A stretch of DNA of 64,000 bases. It comes from Rhodospirillaceae bacterium. Its GTDB lineage: Bacteria > Pseudomonadota > Alphaproteobacteria > Reyranellales > Reyranellaceae. Where the stretch lies: the NCBI GenBank assembly GCA_009772935.1, contig WOUR01000020.1:1-64000 (forward strand), given 5' to 3'. This document shows, piece after piece, positions 31,969-37,473 of this stretch (position 1 is its first letter; each line of letters opens with the position of its first letter). Below the pieces are notes generated by a model. It did not search any database and was not told the origin of the DNA. It saw only the letters and a list, made by a program, of their open reading frames with translations. A program made the translations under genes and the position numbers.

Positions 31969-33411
31969 TCAGACCACCCGGAAGTTCCTGAACTGCCAGG
32001 GGTCGGACTTGTCGAGATCCTCGGGGAAGAGTTCGCCGCGGCCCTGCAGCGGGGTCCAGTCGCTGTACTTGCCGACGACCGGGCCGAGATAGGGCATGCA
32101 GATCTCGAGGTTGCGCTGGAAGTCCATCTCGTCGGCCTCGACGATGCCCTCGTTCGGGTTCTCCAGCGCCCAGACGATGCCGGAGAGCACCGGCGCCACG
32201 ACCTGGATCGAGGTCGCGTTGTTGTAGGGCGCGAGCTTGCGCGCCTCGTGGATGTCGATCTGCGAGCCGTACCAGTAGGCGCCCTTCTTGTGGCCCATCA
32301 GCAACACGCCGAGTTCGTCGCGGCCCGAGGTGACCTCGTCGACGATCAGGCGCTGGCGCTTCTGCTGCTTCAGATTCTTACCCGCCAGTTCGTGCATCGA
32401 CATGATCGCCTGGTCGCACGGGTGATAGGCATAGTGCACCGTCGGGCGATAGACGGCCTTCTTGCCGTCATGCACCGTCAGGTAGTCGGCGATCGAGATC
32501 GATTCGTTGTGGGTGATGATGTAGCCGTGGAAAGGTCCCTCGATCGGCGTCCAGGTGCGCACCTGGGTGAGCAGGCCCGGACGATTGAGGTAGATCGCGG
32601 CGTCGCAGCCGAAGGTGTGGCGCTTGCCGTCGGGCGGGAGCGCCTTCTCGTGCGTGCCCCAGCCCATCTCGGCTGGCTGTCCGCCCTCGGAGACGAAGCC
32701 GTCGATTGACCAGGTGTTGACGAACTCGCCCACCTCCTTCGGCTTGGGAGAGACCTGCGTGTCGCGCTCGGCGATGTGGATCACCTTCACGCCCAGGCGC
32801 TGGGCGAGCTTGCCCCAGCCCTCGCGCGTGGCAGGCACAGCCGTCTTCACGCCGGTGTCGCGCGCGACGTTCATCAGGGCCTGCTTGGTGAAGTGCGAGA
32901 CGAGGCCCGGATTGGCGCCATGGGCGACCACCGCCGTCGTCCCGCCCTTGTGGCGGGACTTGAGCTTCATCATCGTGTCGCGCAGCGCGTAGTTCGAGCG
33001 ACGCGAGACCGACAGGTTGGGATCGGAATAGCCGCCCGGCCAGGGCTCGATGCAGGTGTCGAGGTAGAGCACGCCCTTCTTCTGGCAGAGCTCGATCAGT
33101 GCGGTCGACGCAACCTCGACCGAGAGGTTGACCAGGAAGTCGCCCTGGCCCAGCCGGTTGTCGAGGGTCGACCGGAGGTTTGATTCGGTCAGCCGCTTCT
33201 CGACGAATTCGACGCCGAAGCGCTCGGCCTCGTCCTCGCCGCCGCGCATGTCGTCGGTGATGATGGTGATCTGCTCGGGCTTGATGCCGATGTGGCGGAG
33301 GATCAGAGGCAGCACGCCCTGACCGATCGAGCCGAAGCCCACCATGACCATGCGGCCATGGAAATCGAGGTACTTCTTCGTCGAGGGCTTGCGTGCAGTC
33401 TTCTTCGCCAT
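31969..33411 (-). CDS. hss: Homospermidine synthase
   Basis: 480 aa; MVMVGFGSIGQGVLPLILRHIGIKPEQITIITDD, VLYLDTCIEPWPGGY, AHGANPGLVSHFTKQAL characteristic of bacterial homospermidine synthase. Confidence 0.92.
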   Translation of the reverse strand: MAKKTARKPSTKKYLDFHGRMVMVGFGSIGQGVLPLILRHIGIKPEQITIITDDMRGGEDEAERFGVEFVEKRLTESNLRSTLDNRLGQGDFLVNLSVEVASTALIELCQKKGVLYLDTCIEPWPGGYSDPNLSVSRRSNYALRDTMMKLKSRHKGGTTAVVAHGANPGLVSHFTKQALMNVARDTGVKTAVPATREGWGKLAQRLGVKVIHIAERDTQVSPKPKEVGEFVNTWSIDGFVSEGGQPAEMGWGTHEKALPPDGKRHTFGCDAAIYLNRPGLLTQVRTWTPIEGPFHGYIITHNESISIADYLTVHDGKKAVYRPTVHYAYHPCDQAIMSMHELAGKNLKQQKRQRLIVDEVTSGRDELGVLLMGHKKGAYWYGSQIDIHEARKLAPYNNATSIQVVAPVLSGIVWALENPNEGIVEADEMDFQRNLEICMPYLGPVVGKYSDWTPLQGRGELFPEDLDKSDPWQFRNFRVV

Positions 33412-33506: not shown

Positions 33507-34637
33507 TCAGATGCAGACCGCCTTGAGCGGCGCGAAGCCATTGAACGCGACCGAGGAGTAGGTCGTCGTGTAGGCGCCGGTCGAGAGAATCTCGACCTTG
33601 TCGCCCGGCTTCAGGGACAGAGGCATTTTGTACTCCGTCTTTTCATAGAGGATGTCGGCGGAGTCGCAGGTCGGGCCGGCGAGCACCACCGGACCCATGC
33701 GCGTGCCCTCGCCGGGCGTACGCAGGCGGTACTTGATGCTCTCGTCCATCGTCTCGGCCAGGCCGGAGAACTTGCCGATGTCGAGGTAGACCCAGCGCTT
33801 GCGGTCGCCCGACGCCTTGCGCGAGACCAGCACGACCTCGCTCTGGATCACGCCGGCGTCGCCCACCATCGAACGGCCCGGCTCGAGGATGACCTCGGGC
33901 ATGCGGTTGCCGAAGTGGCGCACCAGCGCGCGGGTGACGGCCTCGCAATAGGCCTCGAGGCCGCTCACCTCGGCGCGGTAGCGCGCCGGGAAGCCGCCGC
34001 CCAGGTTGACCATGCGCAGGTCCACGCCGGCCTCGGCCAGCGCGAAGAACATCTGCGAGACCTGGCCCAGTGCCTTGTCCCACTGGTCGAGATCGGTCTG
34101 CTGGCTTCCGACATGGAAGGAGATCCCGTAGGCGTCGAGGCCCCAGTCCTGCGCCTTGCGCAGCAGGTCCTTGGCCATCTCGGGCGCGCAGCCGAACTTC
34201 TTGCTGAGCGGCCATTCGGCGCCGCCGCAATCGACCAGCACGCGGCAGAACACGCGGGCGCCCGGCGCCACGCGGGCGAGCTTCTGCAGCTCCGCCTCGC
34301 TGTCGAAGGCGAACAGGCGCACGCCCTGCTGATAGGCCCAGGCGATGTCCTTTTCCTTCTTGATCGTGTTGCCGAAGGAGACGCGGTCCATCGAGACGCC
34401 GGTCGCCTGGATCATCTCGATCTCGCCGCGGCTCGCGGTGTCGAACTTGGACCCTGCCGACGCCAGACGAGCCAGCACCTGTGCGGCCGGGTTGGCCTTC
34501 ACGGCGTAGAAAATGTGCGCCGTCGGCAGCAGCTCGCGCATGCGCCGGAAGTTGCTCTCGACCACGTCGAGGTCGATCACCAGGCACGGCGTCTCGGGCT
34601 GCTGCTCGCGGAGGTAACGGAAAATACGCTCGGTCAT
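33507..34637 (-). CDS. Ornithine/lysine decarboxylase, PLP-dependent fold type III
   Basis: HIFYAVKANPAAQVLARLASAGSKFDTASRGEI, ISFHVGSQQTD, RMVNLGGGFPARY, LAGPTCDSADILYE; adjacent to hss. Confidence 0.9.
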   Translation of the reverse strand: MTERIFRYLREQQPETPCLVIDLDVVESNFRRMRELLPTAHIFYAVKANPAAQVLARLASAGSKFDTASRGEIEMIQATGVSMDRVSFGNTIKKEKDIAWAYQQGVRLFAFDSEAELQKLARVAPGARVFCRVLVDCGGAEWPLSKKFGCAPEMAKDLLRKAQDWGLDAYGISFHVGSQQTDLDQWDKALGQVSQMFFALAEAGVDLRMVNLGGGFPARYRAEVSGLEAYCEAVTRALVRHFGNRMPEVILEPGRSMVGDAGVIQSEVVLVSRKASGDRKRWVYLDIGKFSGLAETMDESIKYRLRTPGEGTRMGPVVLAGPTCDSADILYEKTEYKMPLSLKPGDKVEILSTGAYTTTYSSVAFNGFAPLKAVCI

Positions 34638-34697
34638 CGCTGGGGGGTTCCCCGTAGGATAGTCAGTCTGTCGGAAGAGATCGAACGACGACGTACG

Positions 34698-34713
34698 GCG
34701 CCAAGCGTGGCGC
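34698..34713 (-). promoter_or_regulatory. Perfect hairpin in the ODC leader just after the uORF stop
   Basis: gcgcca-agcg-tggcgc (+ strand), between uORF stop (34720) and ODC start (34637). Confidence 0.5.
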
Positions 34714-34719
34714 GATACG

Positions 34720-34839
34720 TCAGCCGATACTCGACTGAGCTAAGATCCGTTTGTGCGGCTGAGCGAGGAAGGAGGCCCGAACGAGGGTCGGGCAAAGGAC
34801 ATAATAGCGGGGTACGCGCCCCGCGCGGTAAGCAACCAT
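34720..34839 (-). CDS. Upstream leader ORF (39 aa) in the ornithine decarboxylase 5' region
   Basis: ATG preceded by GGAAGGAGCTTCTAG; MVAYRAGRVPRYYVLCPTLVRASFLAQPHKRILAQSSIG*; below the size cutoff of the supplied track. Confidence 0.55.
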   Translation of the reverse strand: MVAYRAGRVPRYYVLCPTLVRASFLAQPHKRILAQSSIG

Positions 34840-35062
34840 CTAGAAGCTCCTTCCCGGACCCGGCCCTCATCGCCCGAAAGCAAATTGGCCGGCACTGCCA
34901 AAAAGAACACTTTCCGTCGTTGCGTAACCACAGAGGGCCAGCGGCACGTGCGTTGGGCGTCTTGTATGGGTGCTATCTACAACTAATCGACATGGTTACA
35001 AGCGGAATCTGTCCCGCCTCGACAATTTCGACCGCTCATGACGCCGGCACGACAGGCTCGCG

Positions 35063-36325
35063 TCAGACGCGCGGCACCGACGCCCCCGGAAGCTTGATCG
35101 ACGCGGCCAGCACGGTGAGCGGGACCAGCATCACGACGGAGCCGATGAGCGCGGTGCGGACGTCGAAGTAGTTGGCGATCTTCCCCCACAGCAGCGCGCC
35201 CAGCACCATGGCGCCGAAGAACACCATCTGATGGACCGCCATACCGCGCGCGCGCATGTAGTTGGGCAGGATCATCTGCACCGAGGCGCCATTGTTGGCG
35301 ATCACGGTGATCCAGCAGGCGCCGTTGATCGCGACGACGACACCGACCACGATCGGCGTCATGGCGAGCGCCGCGACCAGGGTGGCGGCCGCCGAAACAC
35401 CCATCGCCCAGATGTTGGCGCGATCGGGACCGAGCAGCCGGTTCACCGTCGGCAGCGCGAAGGCCGCTACGACGGCACCGGTGCCGAACACGCCGTAGAG
35501 GATGCCGAAGGTAAACTCGTCGAGGCCCAGTTCGAAGCGGCCGATCACCGGCAGCAGGGTCCCCATGGCGATCCCCGGCACGAAGAAGCAGAGGCCGCGG
35601 GCGAAGATCGCACGGAGTTCGGCCGATCCGCGGACGAAGGCAATGCCCGCGCGCGCTGCCTCGCCCAGGGTCTCGCGGCGCTGGGCGGCGCGCGCCTCGA
35701 CCGGCCGCTTCCAGGCCCGCATGGCCAGGATGACGCCGACATAGGTGAAGGCATTGACGGCGAAGAGCAGGAAGACGCCGACCAGGCCGAGCAGCAGCTG
35801 GCCGATGACCGGGCCTATGGTGCGGGCGAGGTTGAAGCCGGCGCTGTTCAGGGCGATGGCCGGTCTCAGCTGCGGGCCGCTGACGATCTCGGGCACCACG
35901 GCGTGCCAGGCCGGCGCATTCATGGCATTGCCCAGCCCCATGCAGAAGGACAGCGCCAGCAGGTTCCAGTGGTTGAGCTGCCCGAGGAAGGCCAGCACCG
36001 CCAGGGTGGCGGCCACGGCCATCATCCAGACCTGACAGCCGATGATGTAGCGGCGGCGGTCGAACCGGTCGGCCAGGATGCCGGCGAAGAAGCAGAACAG
36101 GAACATCGGCAGGGTGCCGGCAGCGGCCAGCAGGGCCACGAAAATCGGCTCCTGGGTCAGGCTGGTCATTTCCCAGGCGGCGCCCGTCGTCTGCATCCAG
36201 CCGCCGACGTTCGACATCAGGTTGGCGATCCACATCGCCAGGAACGACCGGTTGGCGAGCGGTGCGAAGGCGGACGGCGGCTTCGGCGGCCGCGCGGGCG
36301 CCGGCCCGGGTGACGTCGGCTTCAC
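35063..36325 (-). CDS. MFS transporter (EntS-like)
   Basis: SFLAMWIANLMSNVGGWMQTTGAAWEMTSLTQEPIFVALLAAAGTLPMFLFCFFAGILADRFDRRR; ATG overlaps stop of 36322 gene. Confidence 0.88.
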   Translation of the reverse strand: MKPTSPGPAPARPPKPPSAFAPLANRSFLAMWIANLMSNVGGWMQTTGAAWEMTSLTQEPIFVALLAAAGTLPMFLFCFFAGILADRFDRRRYIIGCQVWMMAVAATLAVLAFLGQLNHWNLLALSFCMGLGNAMNAPAWHAVVPEIVSGPQLRPAIALNSAGFNLARTIGPVIGQLLLGLVGVFLLFAVNAFTYVGVILAMRAWKRPVEARAAQRRETLGEAARAGIAFVRGSAELRAIFARGLCFFVPGIAMGTLLPVIGRFELGLDEFTFGILYGVFGTGAVVAAFALPTVNRLLGPDRANIWAMGVSAAATLVAALAMTPIVVGVVVAINGACWITVIANNGASVQMILPNYMRARGMAVHQMVFFGAMVLGALLWGKIANYFDVRTALIGSVVMLVPLTVLAASIKLPGASVPRV

Positions 36326-37473
36326 CCCTGCAGCACCTTCTCGTAGATGCGGTGGGTCTTGTAGTGCACCCCGCCGACCGAGCGGATGATGTTGTTGGTC
36401 GCCTTGTTGTCCTCGAGGATCCAGCCCAGTTCAGCCGAGGTCTTGCCCAGCCGCTTGCCGTTTGCCCTGAGGGTATCGATGGCGATCATGGCGAGGCCGG
36501 CGCCCAGCAGTGGATGGTTGCGGAACTTCTTCTTCACGCCCATCAGCGGCACCCTCGTGCTGCCGACGCCGGCGATCTTGAGGCGCCACAGCAGCTTGGC
36601 GAGGTTGATGGGTCCCAGCTTGCCGTCGAATTCCGCGACCGCCTCGTAGATGTTGGTGAGCGCCACGATGAAGGCCACGCTCTCGTCATCGACGTCCACG
36701 AACACGGCGAGCTCGGGCACGATCACCGGGCCGAAAGCCTTGGAGGCATGGTCGATCTCGGCCTGGGTGAAGGGCACGAAGCCCCAATTGTCGCTCCAGG
36801 CGTCGTTGAAGATGCCGACCAGGGTGCGTACCTCGGCATCGAACATCTTCATGTTGGCCGTACGCACCTTGACCCGTCCTTCGAGACCGCCGCGCGCCAG
36901 CAGCTTGGCGCCGATCGTCTCGGGTGCGTTCTGGACGTCGTAGTCGTAGGAGAAGACGTCCTTGGCCTTCACATAGCCGCAGGCCTCGACCCTCGGCCCG
37001 GCATAGGGCGGATCGTAGGGCACCAGCAGGACGGGCCGACTGTCGAACCCGTGGACCAGCAGCCCCACCTCCTCGTTCACCGTGAGGCTGAACGGGCCGG
37101 TCACGTGCTTCATGCCCTTGGTCCGCAGCCAGGCCTCGGCTGCAGCGAACAGGGCGGCGAAGATCGCCGGATCGTCCTCGGCGGCCAGGCAGCCGAAATG
37201 GCCGGTACTGTCGTCGTATCGCTCGAGATGGGCACGATCGATCTGGGCCGAGATGCGGCCGACCACCTTGCCGGCCCGTCGCGCCAGGAAGAATCGCACC
37301 TCGACATGCTCGAACAGCGGATTCTTGCCTGGCGTGAAGGCTTCCCGGCGCTCGAGGTCGAGCGGCGCGACGTAGCCCTTGTGGCCGGCATAGAGCCGCT
37401 TGGGCAGCGCGATGAAGGCGTTCAGGTCGGCCTTGGACTCGACCGGTGTGACGATGGTGTCGAACGAAGCCAT
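36322..37473 (-). CDS. GNAT-like acyltransferase, candidate bacterial ceramide synthase (bCerS)
   Basis: 383 aa; N-terminal FIALPKRLYAGHKGYVAPLDLERREAFTPGKNPLFEHVEVRFFLARRAGKVVGRISAQID; located in the spt cluster. Confidence 0.7.
   Translation of the reverse strand: MASFDTIVTPVESKADLNAFIALPKRLYAGHKGYVAPLDLERREAFTPGKNPLFEHVEVRFFLARRAGKVVGRISAQIDRAHLERYDDSTGHFGCLAAEDDPAIFAALFAAAEAWLRTKGMKHVTGPFSLTVNEEVGLLVHGFDSRPVLLVPYDPPYAGPRVEACGYVKAKDVFSYDYDVQNAPETIGAKLLARGGLEGRVKVRTANMKMFDAEVRTLVGIFNDAWSDNWGFVPFTQAEIDHASKAFGPVIVPELAVFVDVDDESVAFIVALTNIYEAVAEFDGKLGPINLAKLLWRLKIAGVGSTRVPLMGVKKKFRNHPLLGAGLAMIAIDTLRANGKRLGKTSAELGWILEDNKATNNIIRSVGGVHYKTHRIYEKVLQG

Follow-up and report, generated by a model that had tools for sequence, protein, structure and literature searches.

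The question raised by this locus is whether a short open reading frame upstream of an ornithine decarboxylase (ODC) gene is a translated and selected element and, if so, how the leader that carries it acts on the gene. The window refers here to the whole stretch of DNA that was analyzed (64,000 nt, contig WOUR01000020.1), and all locus coordinates are those of its minus strand. A preliminary description had pointed out a 39-codon upstream ORF (uORF) preceded by a strong Shine-Dalgarno (SD) sequence, and had proposed that its translation controls ODC expression. Both the ORF and the SD lie where they had been placed (Table 1), and because an isolated ORF of 39 aa behind an SD may arise by chance, conservation was examined. 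Our preferred reading is that an RNA domain, a translated and arresting uORF, and Rho-type exposure of the RNA together control the operon, and we assign it, as a whole, a probability of about 0.5. Control of ODC in cis by a leader carrying the uORF is, taken by itself, quite probable.

Organization of the leader and its operon

On the minus strand, the features occur in the order promoter-like hexamers, RNA domain, SD, 39-codon ORF, stop-codon hairpin, ODC, and homospermidine synthase (Table 1). The downstream gene is a true ODC, as the preliminary description held; its nearest solved structures are lysine/ornithine decarboxylases, and the products predicted for the operon are putrescine and homospermidine. 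The same leader, before an ODC of 90-99% identity, is found in named genomes, among them those of Reyranella species and Enhydrobacter aerosaccus, and this places the window in Reyranella. The putative promoter was not called in a sigma-70 consensus scan and is proposed on the basis of conservation only, as a CTTG[C/T]...TA-rich hexamer arrangement with fixed spacing is found directly 5' of the RNA domain in several genera (cross-genus comparison); from its position, transcription would be expected to start near 34967. Elsewhere in the window, a 383-aa ORF at 36322-37473 has no match in Pfam or NCBIfam.

Table 1. Coordinates of the leader and operon features in the window.
Feature	Position	Strand	Details
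Putative promoter	34974..35002	-	-35 CTTGTA (35002-34997), 17-nt spacer, -10 TAGATA (34979-34974)
5' RNA domain (model R1)	34838..34967	-	R1 match 90.5 bits, E 8e-19; judged homologous to the ar45/speF leader
Nested P1 stem	34906..34961	-	closing pairs GACGC / GTGTT around GCACGTGCC...GCAACGACG
U-tract CUUUUUGG, candidate anti-SD, also terminator-like	34898..34905	-	directly after P1; can pair with uORF SD region
uORF SD GGAAGGAG (34854-34847) within CCGGGAAGGAG	34847..34857	-	alignment; consensus elsewhere CCGAGAGGGAG
Leader ORF, 39 aa + TGA	34720..34839	-	MVAYRAGRVPRYYVLCPTLVRASFLAQPHKRILAQSSIG; ATG at 34839, TGA 34722-34720
Hairpin P3	34807..34824	-	GCGGGG-CGCGTA-CCCCGC, within uORF codons 6-11
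Hairpin P4	34775..34793	-	GCCCG...CGGGC, within uORF; one covarying pair
C-terminal motif	34720..34737	-	CAG TCG AGT ATC GGC TGA = QSSIG*; codon alignment
Stop-codon-rooted hairpin	34690..34721	-	GA of UGA paired; 59/59 distinct Reyranella leaders
ODC, alanine-racemase fold	33507..34637	-	PF02784/PF00278; ATG at 34637
Homospermidine synthase, next operon gene	31969..33411	-	matches 4plp and other homospermidine synthases, E 4e-169

The RNA domain and the genes behind it

The RNA core, GACGC...GCACGTGCC...TGGCCC...GTGGTTAYGCAACGACG...GCGTC-CUUUUUGG, which is followed by a CCGG hairpin and then GAGAGGGAG, is absent from the preliminary description and nearly invariant over many families; the distance from the end of the core or domain to the uORF ATG is mostly 55-60 nt. 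The closing pairs of P1 are GACGC/GCGTC in most relatives, compared with GACGC/GTGTT in the window. We built a covariance model (R1) from 35 diverse leaders, the window's own leader included; it gives a single match in the window's genome and a match in 66 of 385 class genomes (even draw). Outside its training set, R1 detects ar45 sites of the rhizobial type with E values from 2.5e-4 to 5e-3, matching the ar45 region of L092, L094, and L218-L223, with ODC downstream; in L092 and L094 these matches overlap those of the Rfam ar45 model, and both have Rfam speF downstream. The matches to rhizobial-type ar45 sites argue that the window leader is a diverged ar45/speF leader beyond the reach of Rfam, whose speF (RF00518) and ar45 (RF02347) models gave no match in the window, whether the curated threshold or E<=10 was applied, and the ar45 model had no match at the uORF/ODC locus of the window genome (G000). 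The link to the alphaproteobacterial speF RNA that had been drawn previously thus holds for the RNA core under our own model, whereas the Rfam models miss the window.

The 17 pairs of P1 are paired in 98.9-100% of cells in the 35 diverse leaders, with two-sided changes at only 2 pairs (one in each of two helices) and the remainder nearly invariant. RNAalifold also pairs the U-tract with the uORF SD: this CUUUUUGG-SD helix (65-72/114-121 of alignment A1) is paired in 97.9% of cells, with U-G/U-A changes, and because no two-sided change occurs, the pairing is suggestive only.

What stands behind the domain differs among lineages. A long uORF with the Ser-Ser type of ending follows it in 89 of 137 distinct leaders, while Azospirillum and its allies have a uORF of 11-12 codons (MLALHGRALRR*). 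In L072, L148, and L082, ODC carries an N-terminal extension formed by in-frame fusion with the first ORF behind the domain, and the Acetobacteraceae type (∼20 leaders) has no uORF, with ODC beginning ∼140 nt after the core start. Only some lineages thus have the long uORF with the conserved end, while others have a shortened one or none, and because a uORF, an ODC fusion, or another gene can stand behind the same domain, the domain appears to govern the first ribosome-binding site (RBS), whatever gene follows.

The Azospirillum-type uORF of 11-12 codons (L113, L122, L124, L174, and others) precedes a second PLP decarboxylase that is only 31-36% identical to ODC, or about 33%. At L127:5654-5539 and L192:4435-4556, the domain is found before a GGACT-family (PF06094) gene, together with an 8-codon UUG uORF, and its predicted regulon would extend past ODC to this gene. 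Among more distant alphaproteobacteria, L254, L255, and L276 carry degenerate ACG(T/C)GCC cores that lie a short way ahead of ODC and have no uORF; these cores are possibly a bridge to odc1 (discussed below).

Such variety bears on the alternative that the RNA domain is itself the sensor (a riboswitch or protein-binding site) that gates the first SD, with the uORF only coupling translation or keeping the RNA open, and its peptide without a role. Conservation is much stronger in the RNA domain than in the peptide, the gated ORF is the ODC fusion in L072, L148, and L082, the Acetobacteraceae domain stands 140 nt before ODC with no uORF between, and the U-tract/SD pairing from RNAalifold has a counterpart in the related concept of odc1, which likewise hides the RBS (PMC8632094). 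Left unexplained by this alternative, however, are the conservation of the Ser-Ser motif through a TCN/AGY codon change and a pN/pS near 0.25-0.3 in two separate clades (both presented below), and we consider it less likely than our preferred reading.

The U-tract could also be read as part of a transcription attenuator, in which P1 and CUUUUU would resemble an intrinsic terminator and release an ar45-like short RNA, with uORF translation or a factor favoring read-through. P1 closes directly before the U-tract in nearly all members, and the homologous ar45 of Rhizobiales is an RNA expressed apart from speF, as found in Bartonella (PMC7717549) and reported earlier for Sinorhizobium (smrC45; PMC2573895). 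However, the P1 stem is interrupted, the window sequence folded by itself is no more stable than its shuffled versions (z +0.9), and the Acetobacteraceae lack the U-tract; moreover, attenuation would act before the uORF is made, so that the uORF would have no explanation. Together, these points make attenuation improbable.

Selection on the uORF and its peptide

Leaders were drawn from 146 relatives and a pattern scan of GTDB genomes, with identical leaders counted once. The uORF is kept in all 61 distinct Reyranella leaders, in eight lengths (32-45 codons) ending in TGA, and its start codon and SD are conserved across families in the alignment. The distance from ATG to AGTAT, measured without use of the ORF's stop, is a multiple of three in 70/70 leaders and takes nine values, while the spacer from the stop to ODC is random modulo 3 (29/29/22).

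Codon-level comparisons point in the same direction. Pairwise comparison of the 11 most closely related leaders gives a pN/pS of 0.25 in frame, versus 1.27 and 1.23 in the other frames; in-frame estimates of pN/pS are 0.24-0.30, with other frames above 1.1, and in the groups with a signal the other frames span 1.1-2.0. Parsimony within the window's own group gives, at the codon level, 18 synonymous changes against 15 nonsynonymous ones (p 5e-4), or 22 and 15 when counted per nucleotide (p 1.6e-5). In a separate clade with 36-codon uORFs, whose ODC proteins are 53-67% identical, the ratio is 61/46 (omega 0.28, p 9e-11; other two frames 1.72 and 1.09), and in other Reyranellaceae it is 35.5/56.5 (omega 0.56, p 0.004). 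Conservation at the amino-acid level in close relatives, the lack of which the preliminary description would have taken as decisive against its proposal, is therefore found, as pN/pS is clearly lower than 1. Omega is 0.78, 0.89, and 1.28 in three Reyranella subgroups of greater divergence, which have no significant synonymous excess, on account of which the middle of the peptide appears to evolve nearly freely while the frame and the ends stay fixed. An overlapping 78-aa ORF (34870-34634, its stop overlapping the ODC ATG) was dropped as a candidate, given that the non-uORF frames have no synonymous excess.

The C-terminal endings that recur across families are P-S-S-[IM]-G (in most Reyranella), N-P-L-S-S-[MILQ], and D-P-S-S-L. 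Constraint on the residue is clear for the first Ser of the motif, because all six Ser codons (TCG, TCC, TCA, TCT, AGC, and AGT) are used, including a switch between TCN and AGY that requires two changes. The second Ser (34731-34729 in the window) is AGT in 88/92 leaders, and in 3 of the other 4 the motif match is one codon off; as AGT accounts for only 2/84 Ser codons in five neighboring genes, constraint here appears to act at the codon or RNA level as well. The peptide has no match up to E 10 in Pfam or NCBIfam, libraries that may not include a SpeFL model. From the selection on frame and codons, translation of the uORF is strongly supported, and we regard it as nearly certain that the leader ORF is translated and selected.

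The composition of the uORF allows for attenuation by charged tRNA, with an Arg-rich uORF sensing arginine or the rare Ser codon AGU sensing tRNA supply. Arg makes up 13-17% of several uORFs, compared with 6.5% in the five neighboring genes, and the bias of the second Ser codon described above would suit the same idea. The Arg codons, however, are scattered, shift between clades, and are partly imposed by GC-rich hairpins; they form no run of control codons, and no terminator/antiterminator pair surrounds them, leaving this alternative very improbable. It is scarcely credible that conserved RNA hairpins created the ORF by accident and that it is neither translated nor selected: P3, P4, and the stop-codon hairpin do account for several conserved codons, but indels occur only in threes, the codon-frame signal is found in separate clades, Ser switches between codon families, and SD and ATG are conserved across families.

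Candidate mechanism and comparison with known leaders

Between the uORF and ODC, the preliminary description had noted the hairpin GCGCCA-CGCT-TGGCGC, which is located at 34712-34697 and, as had been estimated (∼60 nt), ends 59 nt before the ODC ATG at 34637. That hairpin is only the inner part of a longer structure that begins inside the stop codon, GACGTA-TC-GCGCCA-CGCT-TGGCGC-CG-TACGTC (34721-34690; -20.9 kcal/mol, z -2.4). It emerged from folding each leader alone, and is rooted on the stop codon in all 59 distinct Reyranella leaders, with pairs preserved through C-G to T-A and other changes; it was not seen in the checked leaders outside the Reyranella type. Across the uORF-to-ODC region, RNAalifold finds little covariation apart from P4 (pair 50-77: CG 47, UG 8, UA 4). 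Like P3 in the window, a G-rich/C-rich hairpin follows the uORF start in other clades. The uORF-to-ODC spacer is 58-205 nt in length, with no sequence conserved between genera.

The ODC start region (34655-34635, CGGGGAACCCCCCAGCGATG) is nearly invariant in Reyranella and lacks a good SD; it is complementary to P3, which was not seen in other genera. The resulting pairing, at -23 to -29 kcal/mol in most Reyranella, is striking, yet it was discounted as evidence because both partners are G4/C4 inverted repeats whose flanking pairs have no covariation.

In the mechanism that we propose, a two-part leader would control the ODC-homospermidine synthase operon. Transcription would start just 5' of the ar45/speF-class RNA domain, the U-tract would pair with the uORF SD, and the domain would, judging from this pairing, probably set the frequency of uORF initiation. 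Ribosomes nearing the uORF stop would probably be slowed by the C-terminal Ser-Ser motif of the nascent chain, in response to a metabolite of the polyamine pathway (e.g., ornithine, putrescine, or homospermidine). A ribosome held at the stop codon could then open the stop-rooted hairpin and shield the untranslated stretch beyond it; upon its departure, the hairpin would form and this stretch would be exposed, probably to Rho. We give arrest near the uORF stop with a polyamine-pathway ligand close to an even chance. Because the spacer between uORF and ODC is unconserved in both length and sequence between genera, we favor exposure of the untranslated RNA (to Rho) or a general coupling over a single fixed structure at the ODC start. 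The C-terminal motif would be dispensable in some lineages with the RNA domain, since Azospirillum keeps only 11-12 codons and the Acetobacteraceae none.

The mdtU uORF of E. coli mdtJI, a precedent for the mechanism proposed, is linked to polyamines and controls a spermidine exporter (PMC7815308). It shares the polyamine link with the window uORF, and its conservation is strongest at the C-terminus. The MdtU peptide is not known to be related to that of the window.

Another leader for comparison is odc1 (uORF-25-1), an alphaproteobacterial ODC leader tested in Sphingomonas echinoides, where its short uORF initiates in a reporter (PMC8632094). Both are ODC leaders with a conserved short uORF. 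The RBS of odc1 is sequestered in the right shoulder of P1, to which the possible SD-CUUUUUGG pairing of the window (97.9% of cells, without two-sided change) would be the counterpart. In contrast, the odc1 uORF has a UUG start and a constant length of 11 aa, and the start of the main ORF follows its own by 2 nt, whereas the window has AUG, 39 aa (32-45 aa across Reyranella), and the ODC ATG ∼200 nt downstream. The window leader is outside the published odc1 motif as defined, and no Sphingomonas odc1 leader was recognized among the class genomes fetched.

SpeFL, the ornithine-sensing leader peptide of speF in E. coli and Salmonella, is reported to stall directly ahead of its stop codon in response to ornithine, with the involvement of Rho (PMC7815308, PMC8429421), and so offers a precedent for the mechanism proposed. 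The window likewise has a leader peptide of similar size before ODC, with conserved sequence near the stop; in contrast, no sequence match between the two peptides was recognized, and the library searches give no sign of a relation between their families. Compared by eye, the window peptide has no likeness to the SpeFL sequence. The enzymes also differ, as the fold of E. coli SpeF is distinct from the alanine-racemase fold (PF02784) of the window ODC. Kinship with E. coli SpeFL, to which the preliminary description had pointed as an example, is therefore not supported, and the window uORF peptide is not SpeFL.

A search of open-licence papers found no description of the window peptide family. 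The conserved RNA element and selected short peptide before ODC, in Reyranella and many alphaproteobacterial relatives, likely constitute a so far undescribed switch for polyamine production. Tentatively, the peptides may form an alphaproteobacterial family of arrest peptides unrelated to SpeFL, in which a C-terminal P-x-S-S motif with a near-fixed rare AGU codon would stall ribosomes at the uORF end in response to a polyamine, which may be homospermidine. Such arrest would come on top of the gating of the uORF RBS by an ar45/speF-type RNA, and bacteria would then have evolved control of ODC by a nascent chain a second time, separately.

The ar45/speF leaders (RF02347, RF00518; Corbino 2005, PMC1273637) occupy the same place as the window leader, before ODC, and share with it the GCACGTGCC...GCAACGACG...U-tract core followed by the CCGG hairpin. 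After that hairpin, rhizobial-type speF has a conserved GAAGAGGC...UGCC stem-loop (present in L092-L094 and L218-L223, with L220 not picked up by the script), whereas the window has the SD and uORF instead. No uORF is described for the ar45/speF leaders in PMC1273637, and no conserved ATG uORF was seen by eye in the rhizobial-type speF leaders. No function has been settled for the alphaproteobacterial speF/ar45 leader since 2005, when the A. tumefaciens speF RNA was found to bind none of the polyamine metabolites that were assayed (PMC1273637). For lineages that carry it, the selected leader peptide behind a homologous RNA core suggests a reason for which an assay of naked RNA might overlook the signal: sensing may be done by the ribosome and its nascent chain, and a ribosome-dependent sensor could not be detected in the test of naked A. 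tumefaciens RNA. The comparison joins ar45, speF, short and long uORFs, and ODC fusions in one series, which includes the culturable Reyranella, Enhydrobacter, and Azospirillum.
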